Of a stretch of DNA of 64,000 nucleotides, positions 1 through 30,548 are shown one piece after another. The translations under genes were made by a program, and so were the position numbers. Location: positions 620,001 through 684,000 of the forward strand of contig JAHLKI010000009.1 in the NCBI GenBank assembly GCA_025602905.1. Direction: 5' to 3'. The DNA comes from Phlyctochytrium arcticum (Eukaryota; Chytridiomycota; Chytridiomycetes; Chytridiales; Chytridiaceae). Below the pieces are notes generated by a model. That model was not told where the DNA came from. It saw only the letters and a program-made list of their open reading frames with translations, and did not search any database. Numbering within the stretch: the stretch's first letter is position 1; each line of letters opens with the position of its first letter.

Positions 1-55
1 ACCGCCCTGCTCCGCATAAGAACATCGGTCTAAGTAACCATTTATATATCAGGAA

Positions 56-160
56 ATGGAGCGTACTACTAGTATCAAGATGGATGTGCCTCCTCGTTTT
101 TAGCGGCTGAAAAGATGGTGGTTGAAGGTCACTGCATGTTGTCGGCGCAGCGACGACTGA
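56..160 (+). pseudogene. Small-peptide family locus A, nonsense-mutated copy
   Basis: The reading frame begins ATG-GAG-CGT and follows the peptides at 3962 and 16682 (minus strand): a short Thr/Ser/Ile leader, MDVPPRF, then RLKRWW, TACCRR and a short Asp tail. The Trp codon after MDVPPRF is TAG instead of TGG, so the peptide is truncated at residue 15. The sequence just upstream looks like the end of the 5'-UTR intron that all copies carry (acceptor TATATCAG before gaaATG). The promoter would lie outside the window. The 3' flank (GTAAGTTG, then a GGCAAAAA-type stretch) matches that of loci C and D, so this is a member of the short subfamily. No function is known. Confidence 0.7.
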
Positions 161-338
161 TGACGAAAACTGAATGTAAGTTGAGGAGGAACCTAGCCGC
201 AGGGCAAAAAAGCTGATCTCTGCGAGGGACTGCGCAGTTCAGGGCATCATATCGGACTGGAAGTGATGCAAACTGTTCTCCCCATCATGCTCCATCATTC
301 TAACGCGAACAAGTACTCGCGATGTTTGGACGTGTTTA

Positions 339-627: not shown

Positions 628-711
628 ATGCACCACTAGCACCAAGATGTTAAAATGGAACCCCCGCCTCGTTTCTGGAGACTCAGAAGATGGTGGGCGA
701 GCATGTCTTAG
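628..711 (+). pseudogene. Small-peptide family locus B, disrupted copy
   Basis: From the ATG at 628, which corresponds to the locus E start, the frame reads M-H-H-stop and then continues H-Q-D-V-K-M, matching locus E (QDVKM) before the core. An internal ATG at 655 opens an 18-residue peptide, MEPPPRFWRLRRWWASMS. The core is therefore intact but the leader carries a nonsense codon and the C-terminal part is lost. Expression of the 18-mer from the internal ATG is possible but untested. Confidence 0.6.
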
Positions 712-979
712 GCAAAGCAGCTTGTGCCAAGAGGGCTCAAATTGACCACGAGCAGTTTGTGCCAAGAGGACCAAGAAATCCTGGCTCTCCCTGATTTTCC
801 TTTGCAACCTTGAAATGCCATATGTGATGCAGATCTTCTCGGGGAGTACTCCGTTTCTTGGATGTTACTCTTGCTGCTGACGTTCAAGAGCCGACAAGGT
901 GTTTTGGAGTGTACCTGTCAGTGTGCCTGTCAGTAACGTCCGTGATCTGAGATCGGAATTTGACACTTTGCTGGCTCAA

Positions 980-1240
980 GTGGAGATCAACAAAATGTGG
1001 AGAATCTGGCCCTCGACGTGAGTAATCACATCGAGTACTCCGGGGATACATTGGGTGTGGTGAATATCAACGACGGTGTGGAGAATCTGGCTCCCGGTGA
1101 AGGATGATCAGCTCGAGTTCTTTTTGGACAGGGTGGACAGGGTGAATATCAACGAATGTGCGGTCAATGTACCCGGTGAGGAGCGCGAGTGTTTCCGGGA
1201 TATATGTGGAAGTTTTGGATCCCGGACTAGTCAAGAGTTG
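980..1240 (+). repeat. Tandem repeats of about 80 bp inside the long unit
   Basis: Three degenerate units begin near 980, 1060 and 1142. Each opens with GTG, a purine-rich triplet and ATCAAC, and the first two continue into GAGAATCTGGC. The corresponding part of copy 3 (about 28113-28310) has units near 28113, 28196 and 28275 with the same motif, and copy 2 has them on the minus strand. Translated, the motif reads like K/E-I-N-D-x-x-E-N-L, but no frame is open through all units in all copies. Confidence 0.55.
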
Positions 1241-1568
1241 CTAATGCAGTGCTTCGATTCGATGAAGACTTTGTACGGCAATGGAAAGGTCGGGATTCGG
1301 GAGTATCGTAAACGTTGATGGCGGCAATATTCTTAAAGCCCCCTTTTGCGCTCTTGAAACAACATTCTTGGATGGCCATGCACTGTTTCCTTCTGGTCGT
1401 CTACACGTTGCTGGTACTGGATGTTCGGTCGTGAGCGACTTTTCTGTCCTCTGGTTTGCACGATAGCGGCAACTCCTCCAGCAGGTCGATCCAAGTTGCG
1501 CCAGATCTCGACTTGCATTGCGCGATAGGATGTGCCCGGGCCGTTCGCGCAGGAACTACAGTGGTATT

Positions 1569-1590
1569 GTCGTCGTCGTCGTCGTCGTCG
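1569..1590 (+). repeat. TCG trinucleotide microsatellite
   Basis: A pure GTC/TCG run inside the GC-rich part of copy 1. The other copies have shorter or interrupted versions (about 28700 and 29158). It inflates apparent ORFs in several frames. Confidence 0.8.
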
Positions 1591-2387
1591 GCTCCAAGTA
1601 CTGGTCGAGTCTGTCGGGGGCTGGCTTGCTGGTTGATTTAGCAGGGCTATGCGACGTGACCTCCTTCAAAAATACTGGAACACACACACAGTTGCATTTT
1701 GTCTCGTTGCCGTCTCCATTGTCGTCGGCGTTGCTTCTCGTTACGACCATCACCCACCGGCACTTTCCTCGCTGCTCATCCGACATACGTATAATGTCCA
1801 TTGCAGCACTTTGGCCATTTCCAGATACATTGTACCGGTCTTCGTGGCCAATTCCTCGGATGGCATGGATGGCTTGCTGGGTCAAAGTGTTCTCGGCCTG
1901 AGCGCGCCTACCTGGGTTCAGGGACAGGACACGGTGGACATTCTTGGTTTTTCCGCGTCCGACGCGTCGGCCAGAGCTCGGTCGTCGTCGTTGATACCCA
2001 AAACATTTTGCCCCAGACATTCAGCAGCACATCGACCATACTCGACATTTTCAGATTCTCTTCTTCTACGCGGCTCGCCCTCTGTCATTTTTGGCTGGCA
2101 CGGATGGCCAGATGGTAGATTTACTCGAGTACCTCCAGCCGACAGCCACGACCACCATCACAGCTACGACGACCTTGTCATCTGGGATCATTCCTTTCAG
2201 GGACTTCTTTTTTTTCCGCTCCAATCATCCCATATCGGGCCGGGCTGGATACAGCAGATGATACACACGCATCCCTGACAAATGCACGGTCTTCGTATGT
2301 CGAATGGCACATTTTGATGGGGTTTACGGAGCATCTGCGACTCCCCCGACACTAGTTCCGACGGAGCTCGGGAAAGGCCTCAAAAAC

Positions 2388-2395
2388 TATAAAAG
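2388..2395 (+). promoter_or_regulatory. Internal TATA box of the long repeat unit, copy 1
   Basis: TATAAAAG in a segment conserved in all three copies (18284-18291 on the minus strand; 29564-29571), followed about 25 nt downstream by a pyrimidine-rich stretch suited to initiation. It is the second promoter-like element in the unit, pointing the same way as the peptide promoter, and it drives toward the minisatellite. No convincing ORF with a conserved ATG follows. Confidence 0.5.
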
Positions 2396-2446
2396 GGCAC
2401 CGTCGCTCTGCTCTCCCCCCATCATGTTCATCACTACAAGACTCGG

Positions 2447-2697
2447 CTCTCTCTTCATCAATACCTTCTGGCTCGGCTTCATCATCAGGACTTGGTTCGG
2501 CATCATCTGGACCTACTTCGGCTCTCACATCAGGACTTACTTCAGTACTTTCATCAATACTTACTGGTTCGGCTTCATCACCAGGACTTGGTTCGGCTTC
2601 ATCATCAAGACTTGGCTCGGCTTCATCAGGACTTTGCTCGGCATCATCATCAAGACTTGGTTCGGCTTCATCACGACTTGGCTCGGCTTCATCTGGA
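2447..2697 (+). repeat. Minisatellite of 18-24 bp units, copy 1
   Basis: Repeated units of the type TCATCAGGACTTGGCTCGGC, with triplet length variation. On the minus strand they read as an open, strongly acidic Pro-rich repeat (D-E-A-E-P-S-P-D-D type). On the plus strand one frame is Ser/Gly/Ala/Leu-rich and another Trp/Phe/Ile-rich. Copy 2 has the same array (17983-18245); copy 3 has a shortened, rearranged one (about 29600-29810). None of the frames has a conserved start codon. Confidence 0.65.
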
Positions 2698-3609
2698 CAG
2701 GACTTTACGGACCAGGCCTTTCTCAGTTGAGTATGTTTGCGGTCGTGTTTTGTTTTTGTTTTTTGGATGTCCCCATGTGGGCGAACCGGACTGTCGCTGG
2801 CGCAAGTGAATGGACGGAGCCAGGGGCTGCACTGTGCAGAGGGGCAGTGTATTTGTTACTCGAGGGCGGGCGTCGCCTGAGGACGGTGGCAAAAGGGCCG
2901 GAGACCATATGGCAAACGGTCGACTTAAAGATGGTTTCCCAGCGTGGGTGGATGCAGTGATGTCGCGTCGATATATAAGTGAAGGTGGCTGCTGCTTGTC
3001 TGTTTTCTCTCTTGTATTTTGTACTCTATTCTGTCTATACATTCTCTTGCTTCGAATACCATATCTATACCACTCCTATTTTTTGCAATCTTGTTATAAT
3101 GGCCTTTTGCTTGGGTTTTCCCAATGTTGTTTCAAAACGATGAATGATACATGTACTTTTCTTGATGGCCATCGACTGCGCAACAAAGTGACCATTGTCC
3201 CTGCATCTGTCAGTAGTGCATCCGCTAAGACTGGCGGCAGTATGTCCTGTGTAGCCAGTTGGCTATTTTTGGCAGGATCTTAATGTAGATTTCTGTCGAT
3301 GGAGACCATAGGGTATTGAATCCGTCACATAGCGCTGTTCGCAATACTTCGGCCAGAACAATATGTCAAGAAATGGGGCCAACTCCCATTCTAAATGCAA
3401 ACATCCATGGACAAGGAAATTCCGTTGCAGAGAAGAGCACCGCAGCAGCCGTGCTTCTCGACCACGATGCTGTCACGAATGTATGGCGAGAGATGTTGTT
3501 TTGGAGGGGATCATTCAGCCCAATATATCGTGGTCATACCGACGAGTTAGTCCACAAGGTCATCACTCTATAACCGGGACCGGGACGCTATAGTACCCGC
3601 AATCATAGG

Positions 3610-3705
3610 TCACATGAGGGATTTTCGCACGCGACACACCTCAATGTTTGAACATTTTTTTTCTCCGATCTGTTTGAGGGTCATATCCCTCGCACATATA
3701 TGCAG
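3610..3705 (+). promoter_or_regulatory. Family promoter module, locus C
   Basis: Contains GATTTTCGCACG near 3620, AATGTTTGAACAT near 3642, TCTCCGATCTGTTTGAGGGTCA at about 3662-3683 and a CATATATG box near 3696. The same elements in the same order precede loci E and F. The leader that follows contains no ATG before the intron at 3902. Confidence 0.65.
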
Positions 3706-3901
3706 CTCTTGAGGAGAATTTCCTCTTTCGCTTCTTACCCAACTCTCGACTCGAGTCGTTACCCTGTACGCCAATCTATAAATTTGACATCAAACCCCCT
3801 CTGATTCTTTGAATCTCTCAACTCAACACAGCCGTGGTCCTAGCCTCTGCCGCATCGGTATTTCCCATATCCTATCAGTGATTCAGCTATAACATCCCGC
3901 A

Positions 3902-3960
3902 GTAAGTGTTATCCCGCACGCATATATAATTGACCCAACTAACGTTTTGCCTCACACAAG
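3902..3960 (+). other. 5'-UTR intron of locus C
   Basis: Donor GTAAGTGT, branch-like CCAACTAAC and acceptor CACACAAG, ending one base before the ATG. The introns of D, B and E sit at the equivalent position, which supports a real transcription unit. Confidence 0.7.
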
Positions 3961-3961
3961 G

Positions 3962-4081
3962 ATGGATCGCACAACGACCATTCAGATGGACGTCCCGCCA
4001 CGCTTCTGGCGACTAAAACGATGGTGGAGAAATATCACAGCGTGCTGCCGGCGAAACAATGACGATTTCGACGAAGACTGA
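3962..4081 (+). CDS. Small conserved Trp/Arg-rich peptide, locus C (39 aa)
   Basis: Complete 39-residue frame: leader MDRTTTIQ, core MDVPPRFWRLKRWW, then R-N-I-T-A-C-C-R-R and an acidic tail ending D-F-D-E-D. Locus D has the same length and layout. Across the MDVPPRFWRLKRWW and TACCRR blocks the two copies differ only at synonymous third positions (ten silent, no replacement), which indicates protein-level selection. The core would form a short amphipathic Trp/Arg segment next to a Cys pair, a layout seen in peripheral membrane or S-acylated proteins; that role is inference. I do not recognise the family. It has its own promoter module and 5'-UTR intron, and homology to locus D extends about 400 bp past the stop. 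Confidence 0.7.
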   Translation: MDRTTTIQMDVPPRFWRLKRWWRNITACCRRNNDDFDED

Positions 4082-4784
4082 GGGGTAGGTTGACAACGAA
4101 CCCAATCGCACGGCAAAAACGGCTGAATTACTTCAAGTTTAGTTGTGTGTGAACATTCCCGGCCATTTCCATGCACCCGGCATACGTAGTATAAAATACA
4201 TACATTAATTATCCTTTCTGACTATCCAGTCAAGATTTCCGCATGACCCTCAAGCAGTTTTTGACTAGAATCGCTTTAGTTAGATAGCTTTAGCTAGAAT
4301 TAAATGCTCAATAAACTTTGATGGTAGCTGGTCTCTGTTTCTGCAGTGCATCCAACTCCGCCTTTGCTGCCAACCGATACAAACATTGGGTGGCCCAGAA
4401 TTACAACCTTGAGAAAGCCGTCGTAAGGTGCAATATCTCGGTCTAAGAATGCTGGGCACCATGTACTATTGTGCAGAACATGGTGATGTATCGTGCGCCG
4501 AGGGGCACCAACTACTTGGCATATGATATGATATGCAAAAACTTCCCACGCTCATAGACGGCAGTGGCACATTGCGACAACAAGTACTTCAGCTAACGGA
4601 CTGTGAGTGTTTACTGCTAAAAACAGCGATGACATTCACTTTCACAATTGGTATACTGTGACAATACGAAAATACAGCAGAGGGGGGAATTATGATGAAT
4701 GGTATAAATAGAATGTGAGATGCATTCTGAGATTCTTTCTTGCAGTTGCTGAATACGGTATTGTCGCGACAGCAATACTACGCA

Positions 4785-6365
4785 CTAACGAAAAGATTTG
4801 ACGCTTCTTGAATCTGAGTTGTCTTTCATGGTAAACTTTTCGCTTGCGGGTGGTGTCATGTAGGGAAGAGCTTTAAAACTGCTGGCTGGGCTTTCGAGGA
4901 TGGTATCTTGTATGTACTGGGTGCTATTTTGATAGATGTGTGTGGGAGCCAGAGGGGGCCTGCTAGCGGATTGATCGGAGAGGGTTCGTGAGGTCATTGC
5001 TGGTGGTTCGGGTTTAGATGATCGCGAATTTTTGCGACTGTGAGAGTGCGAAGATCCGGAGGATTCCCATCCGGAGGTATGTATTGTGCTGGTATTTGAA
5101 TGGCGGGAGAAGCTGTTGCGGCGAAGATGGTTTTGTTTTCCGGAATGTGATTTTGATTTGTCGCCACTGCTCATGATTTCAACACTCTCGCCATCGTGGC
5201 CGTCAATGCTAGTGCGCCGACTACTCGTTCGCGAGGTGATGATATTCATCTTGCCCGGTTCGGAACCTTCCACAGGCGGAAATCCGTCTGTTGACAGATT
5301 GCCAAGCTCAACTTCCAAATCTTCGTCATCCACTGAGCCTTCGCGATTCAGAGGAACCTCCTCGCCCTCGTCCCCAACAATATGGGCCTCTTTCAGTGCT
5401 CTTCTGACCAAGACAGTTAGGTAAACGAATACGACTGTGGCTATCAGCATTCCGAAAACCAGCGCAGCAACACGAGCTGGGGTGAAATTGCTCATCTCGG
5501 CAAGGTCCCGAACTGAAGACCCTATGTATATATGCAGAATGATTTTTAGCAGAGCGAGAGCCGTCGCCTGAGTATAGCGCGTGAAGGTAACTGAAGTCAT
5601 CGAAAAGAGCACGGACATGATGCCAAAAGGGTAGGGTGCCAAGCGGATCATGGTCGTCAACTAGGATGCAAAGTTCGGTGAGGAACGGTCAAATGTGGAT
5701 GACGCGGTTGCTTCCATACCTTCAGTCCCCCCTTATCAACGGCATCTTCAATATTCTTGAACTTTGGATACCAGTTGAGGATCCGTGCGCGGTAATAATC
5801 ACCCATCCACCAGCGCGCCAGAGAAAATGACGAACAAGCGCCCGAAAGTGCACCTATGTACGCGGGCACAAACCCAAGTGGGAATCCATAGATAAATCCA
5901 CATAAGTACAACAATGAGCCAAAGCCAATCAACGGCGGAAAGCAAGACAGCCATAAGAAAAAGGTCATGAAGAACATTCCGCTACAATCGAGCAATGTCA
6001 GGCTCAATAAAGATAAAGGAACACAAAAACGATTTATACCTTGGGCCTTTGTCAGTTATGTATTTGGCAAATGCAGTCATAAATTCAACGATTTGTTTAT
6101 GAAATGTAAAGAAGAAGATGGCTCCGAAGACCGACAAGGCAACGAGAATCCATATTGGCAAGTACTGAGCGGAAAAGAGGTGACGCAAAAATACGGATAA
6201 TTCAGCTTTTGAGGAGAGAAAATACGACCGGCGCTTTGATGAGGAAGTTGATGAATTGGAAGGTGTTGGGGACAATAGGCCTCTTCCAGGGAGTGTCGTT
6301 GAGTGCCGGTGCAGGCTAGGAGACGGGGAGCGTGACGAGGGAGGTGAGTGAAAGTACTCCGACAT
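4785..6365 (-). CDS. VTT-domain (TVP38/TMEM64-type) membrane protein
   Basis: Three exons (6365-6040, 5981-5720, 5660-4785) give 487 aa. An N-terminal Ser/Pro-rich cytosolic stretch of about 65 residues precedes a first membrane segment (IWILVALSVFGAIFFF). The VTT (SNARE-associated Golgi) core follows, with WLSCFPPLIGFGSLLYLCG, a Gly-rich GFVPAYIGALSGACSSF stretch, R-W-W, and IRLAPYPFGIMS. A last membrane span (ALVFGMLIATVVFVYLTVLV) leads to a long Ser/Arg-rich tail. The family works in Golgi/ER membranes, and relatives act as lipid scramblases. Both introns keep phase. The tail of about 190 residues is longer than in yeast Tvp38. The gene is divergent from the IMPACT-type gene. Confidence 0.8.
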
Positions 6366-8063: not shown

Positions 8064-11000
8064 CTATACTTTACGAAATTTGTACTTGAGCACTAGCCAA
8101 GCGACACCCCGCATCGCCACAGTAAGCACCGCAATCATGATAAGTGCCAACCGCCATTCGCGATCAGTGTTTTCAAATCCGAGCAGGGCCATTGCATCAT
8201 CCCCAGTTCGGTAATAACATGTGCCACCCTGAACATCAGCCTCCGTGCACGAAAACTGTAGTCCCTCAAACTCTTGTTTGGCAGTGAGCCGCGCCATCCA
8301 GCGGGCAATAGAAGCGTAGTTGATTTTGTCGAGGAAACCGGGCATCTTGACCGAGAGAAAACCGGACATCATGACTTGCAGCGAGATAAACGTTGACATG
8401 ACTTGTACCGAGAAACCAATGGATTGGACCTATGTGTGCGGTTCACAGTCAGCTATTTTGTAAAAAGTTGACATTTGAAAGCGTTGTGAGATCTTACCAG
8501 TGCACAAAAAGCAATACCGATACTTTCCCCCGTGTTAATCTTGAGATCTGAGTTTTAGGACATACCCACAAACCAAAAGCAACTCAGAAACTCTTACCAG
8601 ACAGAAGGTAACATAACAGTAGCTCAACACTCTAGACACACCCGTTTGAAGTCCGATAGCATACACGGCCAGCATGGTATAAAGAATGGACGTGACAATC
8701 TCTGCAATGTTGATGAGATTTACAAATCGTTCTCGCACTTTTTGAAGAGCAGTCTTACCGAAAGGAACCTCATTGACAAGATACGAGACAAAGAAGCTGG
8801 TTACTCCGTAGATGTTATCCCGATATTCAAGCCGCATCAGATTAATCTCGCGTGGGAAGACGGCGATACAATTCAGCATCCCAATAAAAATCAAGGGCCC
8901 ACCTTGTTGCTAGAGGGTAGCATGCGCCGGTGTTAGCGGGGTTGAGCATGCATTCAGTTAACATCAGTACTGACCAGAAACCCAAATCGACTTTGAACCG
9001 AGAGTTGATCATACTTGAGGCGAGCAAAATACCTGTAAAGCGAATATCATGTCAGTATACTCGAAATGGTCGTATGAAACCCCGAGGGACACTACATACA
9101 GTGTAAGAATAACTCCCAGAGCCAAAGCTTGCATCATTCGTGTCGCCATCAAATGGATTTGTCGGTGCAGGTTGACAAAACTTCGATTGATCAAAACGGC
9201 AGACGCGGGGAAGAAGCTGCGGGGTTTACGGTAGGATAGCTCGACTTCCTGGATCGTATGGTCGGCGCTTTTACTATCTATTCTGGGTGGTGTTGGGGGA
9301 CGGACATGCGTAGGAGTAATGGTATCGTCTACAGGTTTTGTGGTATCTGCTTCCACTGTGGACGGATGGCCCACGGAAAATGATCCGCCAACAGCTCCAT
9401 CTTGCGTCTGTTCATAGGCCTCCCATTCCCTCACAAGCCGATCAACCCGTTCCCTTGACGTTGTCTCAACCTCCTGATTTCGTAAATCCACCGACGACAA
9501 GTCAATAGCGTAATCGGCCGGATTGGTCCATCTCGGCGCGGCAAATCCGAGTCGACCAAAATAAGGAATCATATTCGCGGCCGGGCCCGAATATACGGGG
9601 CGACCGCCGCGAGCTAGTAGTAGAGTATGGTCGAATAACCGGACAATATCGGACCGAGGCTGGTGAATGGAGACAATGACTGTTCGGTTATGCTCACTCG
9701 CGAGTCGTTTCAGTAAAATCATGAGGTTGTGAGATGTATACGCGTCCAGTCCACTGGTCGGTTCGTCAATGATTAGGACGGCGGGGTTGGTGAGTAGCTG
9801 AATTCCGATACTCAACCGCCGCTTTTCGCCACCAGAAAGGCCCTTTGACACGCCCTCTTCACCCACAAGGCGGTCCGCACAATCCTTGAGCCCGAGTTCG
9901 ACCATGACAGATTCGGCCCGATCGAGTTTTTGCGTACGGGACATTTCGGTTGGGAGCCGGAGCAAGGCGGCAAAACGGAGGGTTTCGCGGGCTGTCAGAG
10001 CGGGGAGTAGGTGATTATCACTTTGGACCACCAGAGAGCAGAGTGATGCGACCTGGGCAGCCGATTTGAGGTTTTGGTTGGCGTATAAGATTTCCCCAGA
10101 TTGTTCGGCCGACATGAAGGGCCCCAAATCGAGCGGTCGGGCCATCAACAGATTCAGCAGTGTTGATTTGCCGGCTCCACTTGCCCCGAGGATGACGGAA
10201 AGGTTCCCGGCCGGAAAATGAGCAGAGATACTTTGCAAGATGGGTGTACGACGTTGATTCTCCGATGTGTCAATAAGGGCCGCTGCACCCTCATTCTTGG
10301 CCGTCTTCCGTCTCCCCTTTTTCAAGGACAGAGACAGTTTATCCAACCGGATATCAACTCTTGGAACGGCCCCCATCCCCTTTTGCGCTTCCAGATCCTC
10401 CTTCTTTCCCTGCCCCACCTTTTTCCGTTTCTGAGCAACTAGTCCGGTAGCCTGTACCCCTCCAGCCGGCATTACCGACAAAATGAGCGCCGACACAATC
10501 ATCAAAATAAAGAAATTGAGAATCAGTAATAGTGTTGGTGTCCAATAATCATGCTCGGTAAACCCTTGACTGCGCAAAATGTTGACGCCTTGACAGCGGG
10601 GATCGATTGTGCCGGGGGGTAATTGGAGGTCCGGGCATGCGTAACTGTTTTCGGAGAATTCGTTGGAGGAGAGGAGACGGTATCCATATGATATATACGA
10701 AATGTCTTTGAACCAGCGCAAGTAGACGGGGATCTCGTTGATCTATAGTCGTTCTTAGTTTTTGCTTTCATGGTTGTTGCTGAGAAGAATGAGTTTACCT
10801 GAATGTAAAATCCGGATGATGTCGACAAGAAGGTAAATACAGAGTTGGCGATCAGCGATGCCGTTGCGAAATCTCGAGCAATAGAAATAGCGAAAAACGC
10901 CCAGGCGACCCTTTCAAAACCGCCCCGATAAGAACACTCATCAACGCACATGTGTGACAAACAAACTTACGTGCAAAGTTGCATGAGGATATTTCCCCAC

Positions 11001-12792
11001 GCAAAAATGGCAAAATGAAATCCTTCGTCCGTCCGCAATCCACTCATGTAATAGAGGATGACAGAGAATATGACGGCTACGACGACATTAAGTAGGAAAT
11101 TGGCGATCCACCAGCCGGTCAGGTACGGGACCACGCCGTACATTTTGTCGAGCCGTTCACGATCAAACACGCGGAAGCTGGGGCACAGATATGTTTAATT
11201 GATGTGATAGAATGCGTTGTTTGGAGGAGGGAACTTACTCGAGAGATAATTTGTAGACCATAAACATGATGGCGAGGTAGTTTTGAACAGCGGCAGAAAT
11301 GTACACGACGGCTTTGCGTCCAAGGATACCAGCCTGCGCGAATGAAGGAGGATTAGCCCGGATATGTGGCAGACAAAGAAGATGAAAATGTACCTGGGTC
11401 TCGTCGAGCTTGTAGAAAATGATACCAACAGCGGTAGCTAAAAGTAACACTTCGATAATGGATCCATAGAGTGTGACCCGGTCAGCTACCAAATTCCGTA
11501 TGGATCTTGCTGACAAGACTTTGGTCTGCTCCCAAAAGCCTGCTCCGGTTCGTCGTTGTCGGCCGGGGAATGCTCCACACACCCGGCTCTTTTTCTTATC
11601 CGTGACGGGTAAGAACTCGGGTGGGGTACGGCTGGCAGCAGAGTCTCGCCATGCTTTGACCAATGTGTCCACACGCGCAAGCGACTCGGCTTCGGCGGCC
11701 GTGTCGCGGTTGTCCACACTGGTAATGTCAATCAGATGGTCGGCGGGATTCACGTATTCTGGCACTGTATGCCCAAGATTCTCGAAATGGGCCAAGGCGC
11801 CTTGACGCGGCCCGGCATAGACCAGATCCCCTCTACTCAGCAAAATGATATCATCAAACAGGTCAAAGATGTCGGATCGGGGTTGGTGGATGGACACAAA
11901 GATGGTCCGTCCCCCACGACAAAGCGAGACGAGCGTTTCCGTTAAGGCGTGCGATGTGAATGCGTCCAGGCCCGTAGTAGGCTCATCCATAAACAGAATG
12001 CTGGGGTTCATGAGTAGCTGGACACCGACAGAGACTCGGCGCTTTTCACCGCCCGAGATACCCTTTTGCCATTCATCGCCAATAATCGTATCCGCACACT
12101 CTTTGAGACCCAACTCGAGAATGACATTTTCGACGTGGGTGTACTTCGTCTTGAGTGGCATTCCCTGGGGGAGGCGAAGACGGGCCGCATATTGTAGGGT
12201 TTGTCGGACTATGGGAGATTTAGAATGTTGATGGGCAAAAATGATTACAGAGATGTGTCAGTATACCTGTGAGAAACGGCAAGAGCTGATCGGTCTGCTG
12301 GACATAGGCGACCTTGCCACTATCGATAAAGTCCTTGGAACGGATCCCATTGATCATAATGTTGCCCTGCAAGTTCAAGTTCCGACCTCGACCAGCCAGC
12401 GCATTCAAGAGGGTAGTCTATCACATATCATCAGCTGTTAGATGATGGTGGAACAGACAAACTGCTAATAACGTATGATGTTACAACCTTTCCACTTCCA
12501 CTTCCACCCTAAAAAAGAAAAGAGATGATGGGGTCAGTTAAATGTACAAGTCGTTTGGTAATGGTTGGGGGCAGAAACGCACCATGATGGCAACCAACTT
12601 GCCGCGCTCGGCTCCAAACGAGACATTTCTAAGAACCGTTGATCCTCCTCGTATTTCATAGACGGATTCTGTAGACTTGTTGGATTCATCCGGGGAAGAC
12701 TGTTGGAGGATCTTGCGTCGTTTGCCGCCAATCGTGATGCTTAGATTTGACACAATGACCTCTGCGGGCTCGATTTGATCGAATTCGTCCAT
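8064..12792 (-). CDS. Full-length ABCG (WBC-type) transporter, YOL075C-like
   Basis: Twelve exons can be joined in frame: 12792-12583, 12508-12488, 12417-12267, 12208-11394, 11333-11239, 11177-10971, 10910-10799, 10742-9100, 9032-8975, 8909-8598, 8539-8498, 8429-8064 (1343 aa). The order is NBD1-TMD1-NBD2-TMD2, with nucleotide-binding domains before membrane domains. NBD1 has Walker A GGSGSGKTT, signature ISGGEKRR and Walker B ILFMDEPTTGLDA. NBD2 has GASGAGKST, LSGGEKRR and LIIDEPTSGLDA. H-loops appear as SIHQPRSDI in both. Both sites look catalytically complete. The overall plan resembles yeast YOL075C rather than the PDR drug pumps. Substrate unknown; membrane efflux or lipid export is the family role. 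Exon 2 is only 21 nt and encodes GGSGSGK. Confidence 0.88.
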
Positions 12793-16199: not shown

Positions 16200-16562
16200 C
16201 AATCTGTAGAATAGTATGGGACCCCAACATGCTTTAAACCGAGATAAAAATGATGTAATTTTGGTAGTTGGCAAAAAAGGCTGGGTTGGATGCACTGCAG
16301 AGAACTTTAGGACACCGTTCATAACATTTATTGGGCGTTTTGTGCTAGCTAAGGCTATCTGATGCTACTCTACTTAAAAACTGCTAAAGATAATGCGGAA
16401 ATCTTGAGTCGATAGTGAAAGAGGAAAGACAAATTGGGATTTATGGCTTATGTGTATGGCCGAAAAGAATAATGCTCTTGGGAAGTATGTATATGTTCAG
16501 CTATATTTGTAGTAAGTTGGCTTTGATTTGTGGTGCAATTGGGTTCCTTCTCAACCCACCAC

Positions 16563-16682
16563 TCATTCTTCGTCAGAATCGTCGTCATTACGCCGACAGC
16601 AAGCTGTCACACGTGCCCACCATCGCTTGAGCCGCCAGAAACGGGGTGGTACGTCCATTGTTATAGTTGTTGTTCGATCCAT
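16563..16682 (-). CDS. Small conserved Trp/Arg-rich peptide, locus D (39 aa)
   Basis: Complete 39-residue frame: MDRTTTIT, MDVPPRFWRLKRWW, A-R-V-T-A-C-C-R-R, then N-D-D-D-S-D-E-E. It is the same length as locus C, with leader, core, Cys-Cys-Arg-Arg and acidic tail all in register. Replacement changes cluster in the linker (R-N-I to A-R-V) and in the tail, where acidity is kept. An in-frame upstream extension to about 16769 is open, but it would run through the 5'-UTR intron seen in the other copies, so this ATG is preferred. Function unknown; see locus C. Confidence 0.68.
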   Translation of the reverse strand: MDRTTTITMDVPPRFWRLKRWWARVTACCRRNDDDSDEE

Positions 16683-16684
16683 AT

Positions 16685-16745
16685 CTTTGTGTGGTAGATG
16701 GTTAGTTGGAGCGACTGTGTTCATATGGATCGGAATGACACCTAC
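16685..16745 (-). other. 5'-UTR intron of locus D
   Basis: Minus-strand donor GTAGGTGTCATTC, branch-like CCAACTAACC and acceptor CACACAAAG, two bases before the ATG. The donor follows CCCGCA exactly as in locus C. Confidence 0.65.
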
Positions 16746-17982
16746 TGCGGGATGCGCTAGCTTAATCACTTATAAAATATGTGAATAAAAGGCAGGACCA
16801 TGGCCGTGTTGACTTGCTTGGCGATATTCAAAGAGTCAGTCAGAGGGGGTTTGAAGTGTCGGAGGGGATTTGAAGTCGAAAATACAGATTGGCGTACAAG
16901 GTAACGTCTCGAGTCGAGAGTTGGGTAAGAAGCAAAGGAGAAAATTCCCCTCAGGGACTTCATATGTATCCGTCTAAAGATTGGTGATACTGAAAGATCG
17001 CCCCTAATCGGCATACGTACAAAGTATGAGTGATTTGGCGTCCTTTCGATCACCAGTTTTCCCAAATTTACTCACCATACCGTAAGTACTATTCAGCATG
17101 CAAGGGCAAGCCGTGTGTCCGAATCCCGCTATAGAATTCCCCTTCCGCTGAACTTGATGGGAAGGGAATGAAAATCTCCCCCGCGCTCCTGGATGCATCG
17201 GAGGAGGGAGACAGTCATTCCCTCCCCGGGCATAGATGAAGGATGTGTTCCATGAAGCACCAGACACAAAAACTGTCGGGGGTATGCAAAAAGGGGACTT
17301 TGGCCCCAAAGCGACCAGTTGCTCACGTCAGCTGAAACGCGTTGTGGAGAGCAAACAGGTAATAACTCTTGTGAATAGACTCGTATTGTTTTTTGTGATT
17401 CTCTTTCGATGCTGGAATAATAGACATAGGGCCGTGAGGTACATAGTCCTAGGCAGCGGGGATAAAAGATGGCGATAATGCGCAGCACATTGCCATCAAG
17501 ACATTGTGATGTACCACTCAATCGGCGGTTCATGTTTTTTAAAACTAACATTGAGACAAACAAGGCAAAGGCCATTATAGCAAGATTGCAAAAAGTAGGA
17601 GTGGTATAGATATGGTATTCGAAGCAAGAGAATGTATAGACAGAATAGAGTACAAAATACAAGAGAGAAAACAGACAAGCAGCAGCCACCTTCACTTATA
17701 TATCGACGCGACATCACTGCATCCACCCACGCTGGGAAACCATCTTTAAGTCGACCGTTTGCCATATGGTCTCCGGCCCTTTTGCCACCGTCCTCAGGCG
17801 ACGCCCGCCCTCGAGTAACAAATACACTGCCCCTCTGCACAGTGCAGCCCCTGGCTCCGTCCATTCACTTGCGCCAGCGACAGTCCGGTTCGCCCACATG
17901 GGGACATCCAAAAAACAAAAACAAAACACGACCGCAAACATACTCAACTGAGAAAGGCCTGGTCCGTAAAGTCCTGTCCAGA

Positions 17983-18245
17983 TGAAGCCGAGCCAAGTCG
18001 TGATGAAGCCGAACCAAGTCCTGATGATGAAGCCGAGCCAAGTCTTGATGATGAAGCCGAACCAAGTCCTGATGATGAAGCCGAACCAAGTCCTGATGAT
18101 GAAGCCGAGCCAGTAAGTATTGATGAAAGTACTGAAGTAAGTCCTGATGTGAGAGCCGAAGTAGGTCCAGATGATGCCGAGCCAAGTCCTGATGAGAGTG
18201 CCGAGCCAAGCCTTGATGAAGAGAGAGCCGAGTCGAGTCTTGTAG
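17983..18245 (-). repeat. Minisatellite of 18-24 bp units, copy 2
   Basis: GATGAAGCCGAGCCAAGTCC-type units on the plus strand, with GAT insertions that keep triplet phase. The plus strand is open from about 17820 to 18291 in a D-E-A-E-P-rich frame, but without an ATG upstream of the repeat. Confidence 0.65.
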
Positions 18246-18283
18246 TGCTGAAAATGATGGGGGGAGAGCAGAGCGACGGTGCC

Positions 18284-18291
18284 CTTTTATA
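18284..18291 (-). promoter_or_regulatory. Internal TATA box of the long repeat unit, copy 2
   Basis: TATAAAAG on the minus strand, in the same context (AAAACTATAAAAGGGCACCG) as copies 1 and 3. Confidence 0.5.
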
Positions 18292-20047
18292 GTTTTTGAG
18301 GCCCTTCCCGAGCCCCGTCGGAACTAGTGTCGGGGGAATCACAGATGCGTCGTAGACCCCATCAAAATGTGCCATTCGACACGCGAAGAACGTTTAGGTT
18401 TCAGGGACGCGTGTGTATGCGCTTGGAGTAGAAAAAAAAGAAGTCCCTGAACGGACATGATCTTGGATGACAAGGTCAGAACAGCTGGATGTACTCGAGT
18501 GCATCTGGCATTTGGACGGCCGTGTATGAAACTTGCAATCATGACAGACGGCGAGCCGAGTTAAGGAAGGAAATTCAGAAATGTCGAGTATGGTCGATGT
18601 GCTGAATGTCTGGGGCAAAATGTCTTGGGCATTTAAGACGACGACCGCGACGACCGAGTTCTGGCTGACGCGTCGGACGCGGAAAAACCAAGAATGCCCA
18701 CCGTGTCCTGTCCCTGAATCCATGAAGGCGCGCTCAGGCCGAGAACACTTTGACCCAGCAAGCCATCCATGCCATCCGAGGAATCGGCCACGACGACCAG
18801 TACAATGTACCTGGAAACGGCCAAAGTACTGCAATGGAATGCCTGGAATGCAGACATAGCAATATCCGAATGCTGGAGGAGCACCGAGGCCAAGTGCCAG
18901 TGGGTTGTGGTAGTAACTAGCAACAGCCACGACAGCGCCGACAACGATGATGAGAAGGCGACAAGACAAAATGCCACTATATGTGCTCCAGGCCTTTTGA
19001 AGGACGCATCGGCCTGCTTGCAAATCGCAAATCAACCAGCCAGCCAGCCCTCAACAGACTTTGGTTCCTGAGAGACCGGCCCGGGCATATCCCATAGTGC
19101 AATGCAAGTCGAGATCTATCCTAAGTTGGATCGTCACGGTGGAGGAGTTGCCGCTATCGTGCAAACCAGAGGATAGAACAATCTCTTACGACCGAGAATC
19201 CAGTACCACAAACGGGTAGACGACCAGATGAAAACGGTGGATGATCATCTAAGAAACTCGTTTCAAGAGCGCAAAAAGGGGCTTTGGGAGTGTTGCCATC
19301 AACGTCTACAAAACTCTTAATTCTCGATCACTTCAACGCCGTACATATCCTTCATCGCATTCAACCACCGCACTGCCAAGTCTTGACTAGTCCCGCATTC
19401 CGCACTTTCACCTGCCTGCCCACTATATCCTGAAAACACTCGAGCGCATCACTGGCCAGATTCTCCACACAGTCGTTGATCTTCACCCTGTCTGCTATAT
19501 CCTAAAAGAATTTGAGCTGATCATCTTCCACCGGGAGCCAGATTCTCTACAAGTTCCTTAATCTTCAACATGTATCCCAACGTATTCCGTCGATGGGATT
19601 TCTTCACGCCGGGGGATAGATTTTCCACAATTTGTTGATCTCCACCTGAACAAGCAATGTGTCAGATTCCGGACTGACATGACGGACATCACTGACAGGC
19701 ACACTTCAAAACACCTTGTCACCGTTTCAACGTCAGCAGCAAGAGCGATATCCAAGAAACGGAGCATCAATGCGTGCCCCCCCCCTCAATATCTGCATGG
19801 CATCTGGCATTGCAAGGTCAAACGCGTGAAACTCGGCTACCAAGGAACATCCAGCAGCAAAAGTTATTCAGGTCAGAACTCTTAAGGGCCAGGATTCCTA
19901 CATCCTCGTTGTACTTCAGTATTGGCCCCAAAAGGTAGAACGCACGTTGCCGTAAAAGGAGACAAGGACGGCCACAAGTGCTTGGCTTGGTCCAGTCTGG
20001 GAACCTTCCACGCACACTGGCCTACTAATTTTGATGGGGAGAGTAGC

Positions 20048-20094
20048 GTTTCGCCATCATCTTTCACAGCATTCAGAAACGAGGCGAGCCATCC
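20048..20094 (-). pseudogene. Small-peptide family locus F, decayed remnant
   Basis: Minus-strand GGATGGCTCGCCTCGTTTCT aligns with the locus E segment encoding MDGPPRFW, but small deletions break the frame before and within the core. A promoter module and an intron-like stretch (GTAGGTCACAAC to GATATATCAG) stand upstream on the minus strand in the usual order. This is a dead copy at the head of long unit 2. Confidence 0.5.
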
Positions 20095-20280
20095 GGTGGT
20101 ACTTATCCCATAACCTGATATATCAATGATGAATTAAATCGATTTTTCATGCGCATCACGTTGTGACCTACTACGTGGTGTGGTAGCTGAATCACTGGTC
20201 TGAAAGTAAATGTAATTCAATGCCATCTATTTGTCCAGGATTTATAAAGGAAACAGGAAATTTTCTGTCAAGGACTTTAC

Positions 20281-27365: not shown

Positions 27366-27526
27366 AAAGTTCGAGGGAATTTTCTTCTTTCTTTCTTTGA
27401 TACCTCGGGTACTGCTCAAATTTACTTCCTATTAAGCTTTTTATTTATCATCCTCTCATGACAGTTTATAGCACGGCCAACCATTTCACATTGCTTCCTG
27501 TCAATGATTCATGTACGCCCCACTCA

Positions 27527-27588
27527 GTAGGTATATCATTCCGATCCGTATGTAATTAATCGCTCCGAACTCATCATTTACATAACAG
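27527..27588 (+). other. 5'-UTR intron of locus E
   Basis: Donor GTAGGTATATC, CCGAACTCATC and acceptor ACATAACAG; 62 nt, eight bases before the ATG as in locus B. Confidence 0.6.
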
Positions 27589-27596
27589 AACATGTA

Positions 27597-27845
27597 ATGT
27601 ACGACCATCATCAAGATGTTAAGATGGATGGCCCGCCTCGTTTCTGGAGACTGAGAATATGGTGGGCGAACGTGATTCCACAGCAACAGAGAACGGTAGA
27701 AATTCAAAATCAGCAGACTACTGTGCGTGGATACGCTGCTCTGTCGACTTTCACAGCAACAGCAACATACTTCCAATTGGGGGCAATCGGTGTTTACGGG
27801 AAACATATCTTTCACGCGGTTCCCCATCTATCGGAGCGCATATAA
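27597..27845 (+). CDS. Extended member of the small-peptide family, locus E (82 aa)
   Basis: Starts MYDHHQDVK, then the core MDGPPRFWRLRIWW and A-N-V-I, and continues for about 55 residues not found in C or D: a Gln/Thr-rich part (PQQQRTVEIQNQQTT) and a V-R-G-Y to H-L-S-E-R-I end. The Cys-Cys-Arg-Arg motif and acidic tail are missing. The leader QDVKM is shared with locus B. Either this is a distinct subfamily member with its own tail, or the original stop was lost and downstream sequence is read through. The core is intact, and the promoter and intron are well preserved, so expression is plausible. Confidence 0.5.
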   Translation: MYDHHQDVKMDGPPRFWRLRIWWANVIPQQQRTVEIQNQQTTVRGYAALSTFTATATYFQLGAIGVYGKHIFHAVPHLSERI

Positions 27846-29563
27846 ACTGCTGGTCGTGCCCAAGTTGACCACGTTTGTGCCAAGAGAATTCAGATATCCC
27901 CTCTCTGCCGTATGTCCTTTGTAGCCGAGTTTCACGCGTCCAACCTTGAAATACCAGATGTCAAGCAGATCTTGTAGGGGAGTGAGCATTGATGCTCCGT
28001 TTCTGGGATATCGCTATTGCTCCTGACGTTGAAACGGTGACAAGGTGTTTTGACGTGTGCCTGTCAGTGATGTCCGTCGTGTCAGTCCGGCCTCTGACAC
28101 CTTGCGTGTTTAGGTGGAGATCAACAAATTGTGAAAAATCTGGCCCCCGATTTGAGGAAATCACATCGACGGGATACATTGGGCATGCATTTGGAAGATC
28201 AACGAACTTGCAGAAAATATGGCTCCTGGTGGGAGATGATCAGCTCGCGTTCTTTCAGAACACAGTGGACAGGATGAAGATCAACGACTGTGTGGAGAAT
28301 CTGGCCAGTGATGCGCTCGAGTGTTTTCAGGATATAGTGGGCAGGCAGGTGAAAGTGCTGAATCCGGGATTAGTCAGGACTTGGCAGTGCGGTGCTTGAA
28401 TGCGATGAAGGATATGTACGGCGTTGAATTGATCGAGAATTAAGAGTATCGTAGACGTTGATGGCAACACTCCCAAAGCCCCTTTTTGCGCTTTTGAAAA
28501 CGAGTTTCTTGGATGATCATCCACCGTTTCCATCTGGTCGTCTACCCGTTTGTGGTACTGGATTCTCGGTCGTAAGAGATTGTTCTATCCTCTGGTTTGC
28601 ACGATAGCGGCAACTTCTCCACCGTGACGATCCAACTTAAGATAGATCTCGACTTGCATTGCACTATGGGATGTGCCCGGGCCGGTCTCTCCGGAACCCC
28701 AGTCGTATGTCGTCGTCGTCGGAAAGTCCAAATACTGGTCGGGTCTGTTGCTGGGTCTGTTGGGGGCTGGCTGGCTGGCTGGTAGATTTGCGATTTGCAA
28801 GCAGGCCGATGCGACGCGACCTCCTTCCAAAGGCCTGAAGCACATATAGTAGCATTTTGTCTTGTCGTTGTCGGCGTTGTCGTTGCTGTTGCTCGTTACT
28901 ACCACAATCCACTGGCACTTGGCCTCGGTGCTCCTCCAGCATTCGGATATTGCTATGTCTGCATCCAGGCATTCCGTTGCAGTACTTTGGCCATTTCCAG
29001 ATACATTGTACCGGTCTTCGTGGCCAATTCCTCGGATGGCATGGATGGCTTGCTGGGTCAAAGTGTTCTCGGCCTGAGCGCGCCTACCTGGGTTCAGGGA
29101 CAGGACACGGTGGACATTCTTGGTTTTTCCGCGTCCGACGCGTCGGCCAGAGCTCGGTCGTCGTCGTTGATACCCAAAACATTTTGCCCCAGACATTCAG
29201 CAGCACATCGACCATACTCGACATTTTCAGATTCTCTTCTTCTACGCGGCTCGCCGTCTGTCATTTTTGGCTGGCACGGATGGCCAGATGGTAGATTTAC
29301 TCGAGTACCTCCAGCCGACAGCCACGACCACCATCACAGCTACGACGACCTTGTCATCTGGGATCATTCCTTTCAGGGACTTCTTTTTTTTCCGCTCCAA
29401 TCATCCCATATCGGGCCGGGCTGGATACAGCAGATGATACACACGCATCCCTGACAAATGCACGGTCTTCGTATGTCGAATGGCACATTTTGATGGGGTT
29501 TACGGAGCATCTGCGACTCCCCCGACACTAGCTCCGACGGGGCTCGGGAAAGGCCTCAAAAAC

Positions 29564-29571
29564 TATAAAAG
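29564..29571 (+). promoter_or_regulatory. Internal TATA box of the long repeat unit, copy 3
   Basis: TATAAAAG, third copy of the conserved element; a CT-rich stretch follows 20-30 nt downstream. Confidence 0.5.
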
Positions 29572-30548
29572 GGCACCGTCGCTCTGCTCTCCCCCCATCA
29601 TTCTCATCACTCTCATCAAGACTCGAACTCGACTCTCTCTCTCTCCCTCTCAAGACTTGGTCTCTCTCTCATCATCAGGACCATCAGGACCATCAGGACC
29701 TGGCTCTCCGGCTTCATCATCAAGACTGGCTCTCATCATCAGGACTTGGCTCGGCTTCATCATCAGGACTTACTTTGGCACTCTCATCAAGGACTTGGCT
29801 CGGCATCATCTGAACTTTGCGGATCAGGCCTCTCTAGGTGAGTATGTTTGGTGATTGGAGTCGTGTTTTTCGGATGTCCCCATGTGGGCGAGCCGGACCG
29901 TCGCTGGCGTAAGTAAATGGTTGGTGCCAGCGGCTGCACTGTGCAGAGGGGCAGTGTACTTTGCTGACCGAGGGCGGGCGTCGCTCGATGAAGGAGCACT
30001 GGGGGCCGGTGACCATATGGCAAACGGTCGAACTAAATATGGTTTCCCGACGTGGGCAGGTGTTAGTGTGATTTCGCGTCGTTAAAAAAGTGTAAGGTGG
30101 CCACTCGCAACTCTCTTCTCTTTCTTGTTTTTTGTACTCTGTTCTCTGTCTATACATTCTCATGCTTCAAATACTATATCTATACCACTCCTACTTTTGC
30201 AATCTTACTATAATGTCCCTTTGCCTTGGTTGCTTCAATGTTGTTGCCAAAAAGATGAACCTCCTTAAGTCTGAACCTTTGAAGGGGGAATGAATGGTAC
30301 AGGTAAGAGGTCTTCACATGCGAAGACTTTGCACTTCTCGGCCCCATGGCTTAACCTACATGAAAAAGTTTTCCCAAAAGCCATCGGGTGCAGAGAATTC
30401 AAATCTGACATGACTAGTATTGGAAGTTTGCCATGGTTGTTCACGCTGCTACAATTGGCCATTTTAAACACAGATGTCCAGAGGAAACGCACTTCCTGTA
30501 AATATAGCCACCGCGGCATCCATTTCGATTGATCAGGTTGATTGTATT

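Follow-up and report, generated by a model that had tools for sequence, protein, structure and literature searches.

A probable family of 39-codon genes under protein-level selection in a chytrid genome, with decayed relatives beside a dispersed repeat

Comparison of a 39-codon frame with its nearest relatives supports the existence of a protein-coding gene family under purifying selection, in which replacement changes are far rarer than synonymous ones. The frame lies in the window, which is the whole 64,000-nucleotide stretch that was analysed (C9:620001-684000 of a 31.5-Mb genome in 91 contigs), and the features discussed are collected in Table 1. Codon differences show that four copies, lying together in less than 20 kb, are strongly selected at the protein level in codons 1-31. 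Our main reading, to which we give a probability of about 0.55, is that this is a locally duplicated microprotein gene family whose product of about 39 residues would be made from a leader-spliced mRNA, remain in the cytoplasm and be held at a membrane surface. The parts of this reading differ in strength. That the gene itself is real is very probable because of the codon statistics, while the membrane part is proposed because of the composition of the peptide.

Table 1. Positions within the window of the family copies, their signals and the associated repeat
Feature	Position	Strand	Character	Basis
Copy A	56..160	+	A-type, broken: TAG in core, stops and a shift in tail	tblastn
Copy B	655..711	+	Relic core at 5' end of 2.4-kb repeat; stop 18 codons after Met
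2.4-kb repeat, first copy	807..3137	+	Dispersed, no codon periodicity
Promoter box TCYGATNTNTTTGAGGGTC of C	3664..3682	+		Exact-match genome search
TATA-like stretch of C	3694..3702	+	D similar	Read from sequence
Putative leader intron of C	3902..3960	+	59 nt; GTAAGT ... AACTAAC ... ACAAG; ends one base 5' of ATG
Copy C	3962..4081	+	CDS, 39 codons and stop	Translation, tblastn, codon comparison, codon-model fits
Candidate second intron	4085..4142	+	58 nt; GTAGGT ... TTTAG, right after C stop; weaker than intron 1
AATAAA of C	4310..4315	+		Aligned with that of D
AATAAA of D	16327..16332	-		Aligned with that of C
Copy D	16563..16682	-	Inverted, intact CDS, 39 codons and stop	tblastn, codon comparison, codon-model fit
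Putative leader intron of D	16685..16745	-	61 nt; GTAGGT ... AACTAAC ... AAAG
2.4-kb repeat, second copy	17537..19818	-		Genome repeat search
Scrambled relic	20042..20175	-	At 5' end of inverted 2.4-kb repeat	Profile search, frames
Copy E	27606..27722	+	Relic core, frame open, different tail; 5' end of 2.4-kb repeat	
2.4-kb repeat, third copy	27941..30259	+		Genome repeat search

Translation of copy C gives the 39-mer MDRTTTIQMDVPPRFWRLKRWWRNITACCRRNNDDFDED followed by a stop. As the first-pass annotation of this DNA had stated, it aligns without gaps with the peptide of the inverted copy D; 32 of the 39 residues are identical (82%) and seven differ. The annotation had also counted ten synonymous and no replacement differences in 20 codons, and a recount gives the same result: seven and zero in the 14 codons of the MDVPPRFWRLKRWW block, three and zero in the six codons of the TACCRR block. 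Over all 39 codons there are 15 synonymous and seven replacement differences, the nucleotide differences are distributed 5/4/20 over codon positions 1/2/3, and the NG86 method gives dN 0.11 and dS about 2. Outside the frame the two loci are 57% identical upstream, 63% in the intron, 73% in the next 59 bases after the coding sequence and 63% in the 3' region, which, AATAAA included, is common to both in the alignment.

Complete frames are found in C (39 residues), D (39) and c1 (40), and a further copy, c2, is intact over codons 1-35 and then reads into a different tail at GTAAGT. Codon models fitted to codons 1-31 of these four copies give omega values of 0.031, 0.031 and 0.024 for the three topologies, with 2dL against omega 1 of 82.6, 82.1 and 88.2; these are estimates from four paralogues of one genome, with exchange among copies, and from synonymous sites near saturation (NG86 dS is undefined for three of the six pairs). 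On a star tree the likelihood ratio is 85.2, a value reached in none of 200 simulations under omega 1 (largest 12.9), and omega in those neutral simulations ranged from 0.32 to 2.44. Variable columns number 9, 5 and 25 of 31 at the three codon positions (Fisher p 1e-7), and in these four copies 45 of the 67 ungapped columns upstream of the ATG are variable. The earlier claims that a frame kept in this way is hard to explain by chance, and that a small-gene family is under protein-level selection, are thus borne out, the latter among the four C9 copies (omega 0.02-0.03, none of 200 simulations).

Could the frame be a chance one, or could an RNA or DNA element be conserved instead of a protein? 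In favour of this, the 5' exon is about as conserved between C and D as the coding sequence (78% against 75% in ungapped columns, the exon having 40 gap columns), so that constraint is in part other than on the protein. Nevertheless, we find the idea scarcely credible: the concentration of variable columns at third positions and an omega of 0.03 that no simulation approached rule out both a chance frame and conservation of RNA only. A structured RNA was also considered and rejected, since Rfam has no match in the window at gathering thresholds.

How widely is the family distributed? A profile search found six copies in the window (4-179, 556-721, 3898-4088 and 27523-27710 on the forward strand, 16557-16749 and 20042-20175 on the reverse; these ranges take in intron and flank), presumably the six loci, A to F, of the first-pass annotation. 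Three further copies, c1, c2 and c3, lie just left of it (L013), c3 with a frameshift. Since the genome searches score best candidates only, all genome counts given here are lower bounds. With tblastn at least eight copies were found, all inside C9:617549-647689, and a degenerate 33-base pattern allowing up to three mismatches returned the same eight and no others (backward control, two). A query nearer to copies B and E added at least six more places on C1, C8 and C26. A profile of the eight copies then matched 18 places in the 13 sources given to it (184 kb), plus one on C11. By type these are six A-type copies (c1, c2, c3, A, C and D), 11 B-type copies, the C11 relic and an A-type tail fragment on C8. 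The A-type copies, all six of them in C9, separate from the B-type copies with support 93/87 in a tree built from 17 of those first 18 places, the tail fragment being left out.

B-type copies are nearly all plainly decayed, E with its open frame being different in this respect. In five of the 11, by informal reading of the frames, the peptide is shifted, cut or stopped in or soon after the core, and the damage differs from one example to the next (L037, L038, L039, L041, L042 and 20042-20175). Other loci with a recognisable core, some of them broken, had been reported, and the TAG of A, the early stop of B and the scrambled state of 20042-20175 agree with this. It appears from these comparisons that some copies decayed elsewhere in the genome while four in the C9 cluster were retained.

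For a selection control we used the stop-free cores of five relics (E, B, L038, L046 and L045). Kept out were L039 as a near-copy of L038, L040 for its 3-base insertion, and L037, L041, L042, 20042-20175 and L058. Over 17 codons omega was 0.56 (p 0.25, with low power), and it was 0.36 (p 0.11) for the subset E/L038/L046 and 0.62 (p 0.60) for E/B; over the same 17 codons the four intact copies gave 0.02 (p 4e-13). The relic estimates, for all that they come from only 17 codons, lie below 1 (0.36-0.62), and weak or past constraint may have acted on the relics. The earlier proposals to search for copies and to compare dN/dS over all of them have had a divided outcome. Relatives do occur genome-wide by tblastn and profile, but selection is seen only among four copies in the C9 cluster; the low omega of the four intact copies (0.024-0.031) is not matched in the relics (0.56, p 0.25). 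Stops, frameshifts or a lack of significant constraint, which were to count against the family, are found in relics elsewhere, and the four C9 copies are nonetheless selected.

The signals around the frame resemble those of a gene. The promoter box TCYGATNTNTTTGAGGGTC occurs exactly at least nine times in the 31.5-Mb genome, six of them in the C9 cluster, where c1, A, B, C, E and the relic 20042-20175 each have it upstream; in the upstream regions checked it is absent ahead of D, c2 and c3. With up to two mismatches at least 26 occurrences are found, against seven for the backward control. Further boxes lie at C35:71341 (exact) and C17:415570 (one mismatch), and in the 1000 bases around each of these two boxes the family profile has no significant match. 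The former thus offers a box with no family core detectable in its 1000 bases (L056, C35:70501-71500, reverse strand).

Comparison of the copies shows leader-intron signals ahead of each of the four intact ones. A GTRRGT donor occupies the equivalent position in 15 of 17 aligned copies (in c2 and L039 the donor scan gives GTAATA only) and AACTAA is at the branch-site place in seven of 17. Taking the nearest candidate AG, the putative intron would measure 59 nt in eight of the 17 copies and some 55-62 nt in the remainder, lengths computed by hand, and the acceptor is doubtful in L045 and L046. The presumed first exon has no ATG ahead of the frame in C and c1, and has an earlier ATG in D and c2 and, by eye, in c3. 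GTAAGT near the position of the candidate second intron is seen also in c1, c3 and A. Since the frame is short and closely follows a putative leader intron, and a candidate second intron comes after its stop, one might think of an upstream frame in a leader that controls a downstream frame of the same mRNA. This is very improbable: the ATGs of C between the stop and AATAAA open only 7, 14 and 5 codons, and the next long open frame, 4785-5660, is on the opposite strand.

The "diverged repeat" in which the family had been placed is real as a setting for the B-type copies, which sit at the 5' end of a 2.4-kb repeat; this repeat proved to be dispersed and to carry no coding signal. Besides the three copies in the window it occurs, whole or in part, at least at four places on C1 and on C35, C26, C31 and C8, and in C35, as well as in three of the four units on C1, the shared stretch extends some 2 kb farther 5'. 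The repeat as a coding element was considered and rejected, since seven pairwise comparisons, each made in steps of 150 bases, show no consistent period-3 mismatch pattern (two single steps among more than 100 had p about 0.02). The 2 kb upstream of it likewise have no codon periodicity in L037 against L040, and two of the repeat's open frames match no Pfam family. Some blocks reach 99-100% identity in copies that elsewhere agree at about 78% (1800-2400 compared with the third copy and 2700-3000 with the second, both at 150-base resolution), which points to gene conversion or recent exchange between repeat copies. Within the repeat, at 2427-2698 and in the other copies, we observed tandem repetition that is open in several frames on both strands, shortly after a TATAAAA near 2390.

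Association with a repeat raises the question of whether the peptide is part of a dispersed unit, 3-5 kb long and mobile now or in the past, that has promoter, intron and frame at its 5' end. The copies in C9 would then be the ones still intact, or adopted by the host. All eight long-fetched relic loci outside C9 do carry the relic at the 5' end of the repeat; these loci were fetched by their match to the repeat, and the link is thus partly a product of choice. The C1 units L038 and L039 share 96% identity over 2.9 kb and the C8 units L045 and L046 share 96% over 2.3 kb; the flanks differ in both pairs, which suggests that duplication continued recently. An A-type tail fragment ahead of one C8 relic is also in keeping with such a unit. 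On the other hand, there is no codon periodicity in the repeat or the preceding 2 kb, and no terminal repeats, target-site duplication or clean ends were seen at those ends that were inspected. The C11 relic came to light through its leader alone, with C11 not among the repeat-search matches listed, and the A-type copies stand apart from the B-type relics and are all in C9. We therefore regard a mobile unit as unlikely, if worth keeping in mind. Equally doubtful is the related suggestion that a new microprotein family arose in the dispersed repeat or was carried by it, its promoter, leader intron and frame having been turned into a host gene in a single cluster and having decayed in other places. 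If it were correct, a single genome would hold related frames of which some are strongly selected and others weakly or not at all.

What might the peptide do? Residues invariant across the four intact copies are M1, RTT, I7, MDVPPRFWR, RWW, T26 and CCRR. An acidic tail of variable sequence is present in C, D and c1 and missing from c2. Under our preferred reading of a local family of host genes, the mRNA would be spliced in its leader and translated into the 39-mer, which would act in the cytoplasm attached to a membrane surface through its Trp/Arg segment RFWRLKRWW. S-acylation of the Cys pair could add to this hold, and the acidic tail would thereby be left free to bind a partner. Meanwhile related units, joined to the repeat that has no coding signal, would have been scattered around the genome, and their frames would have been lost. 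The likeliest mechanism that we can offer, and one that we put forward tentatively, is that the Trp/Arg segment and an acylated Cys pair attach the peptide to the membrane. An amphipathic Trp/Arg core, as had been suggested, is not supported. Residues 14-26 have a helical moment of 0.51-0.64, and between 637 and 1473 of 5000 shuffles (13-29%) are as high in the four copies. AlphaFold2, given C with D as its sole relative, predicts one helix at residues 13-30 with low confidence (mean pLDDT 66, pTM 0.26).

Another potential role is that of a secreted cationic peptide, rich in Trp and Arg, acting on other microbes. RFWRLKRWW does look like part of a Trp/Arg-rich antimicrobial peptide. The N-terminus is hydrophilic, however, with no hydrophobic signal by eye, and counting residues in the translation by eye gives C eight basic and seven acidic ones, a net charge of only about +1; this role seems improbable.

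That no known family came to mind in the first-pass annotation is in line with our searches. Pfam and NCBIfam gave no match at E up to 10 for any of the four intact members, and PDB gave none at E up to 10 by a profile of the four. The peptide pattern fits 34 stretches in viral contigs and 102 in prokaryote genomes, none of them a confirmed relative. We found no paper that mentions the motif strings, and the broader literature matches were irrelevant by title or the start of the abstract.

A few observations on the surroundings can be added. On the reverse strand of the window, 9009-12161 holds long open frames that by eye, from their translations, resemble ABC transporters of the ABCG kind. 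Beside the family relic of L046 (C8:710001-720000) there are long, coiled-coil-looking open frames with internal repeats. PACRG, a mark of flagellated cells, has matches above the cut-off in four stretches at two places in the genome (ParcG; none of 14 controls). With the size of the genome and its short putative introns, this would fit a zoosporic fungus, and the earlier mention of fungi is plausible.

Frames of 39 codons are readily missed in annotation, and here comparison within one genome suffices to reveal selection. With selected genes standing beside decayed relics, gain and loss of a microprotein would be testable in related species.

The family can be compared with other kinds of small proteins. 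Like orphan microprotein families it is very short, has local copies and matches nothing in Pfam, NCBIfam or PDB; unlike them it has an invariant Trp/Arg core with a Cys pair, and decayed relatives dispersed with a repeat. Peripheral membrane proteins palmitoylated on a Cys pair, and the CYSTM proteins, for which Pfam contains a model, are similarly small and have basic and aromatic residues next to a Cys pair, but in the present family no Cys-rich transmembrane module is seen by eye and there is no Pfam match. With Trp/Arg-rich antimicrobial peptides it shares the Trp/Arg-rich segment, and it differs from them in having no visible signal peptide, an acidic tail and a near-neutral charge.
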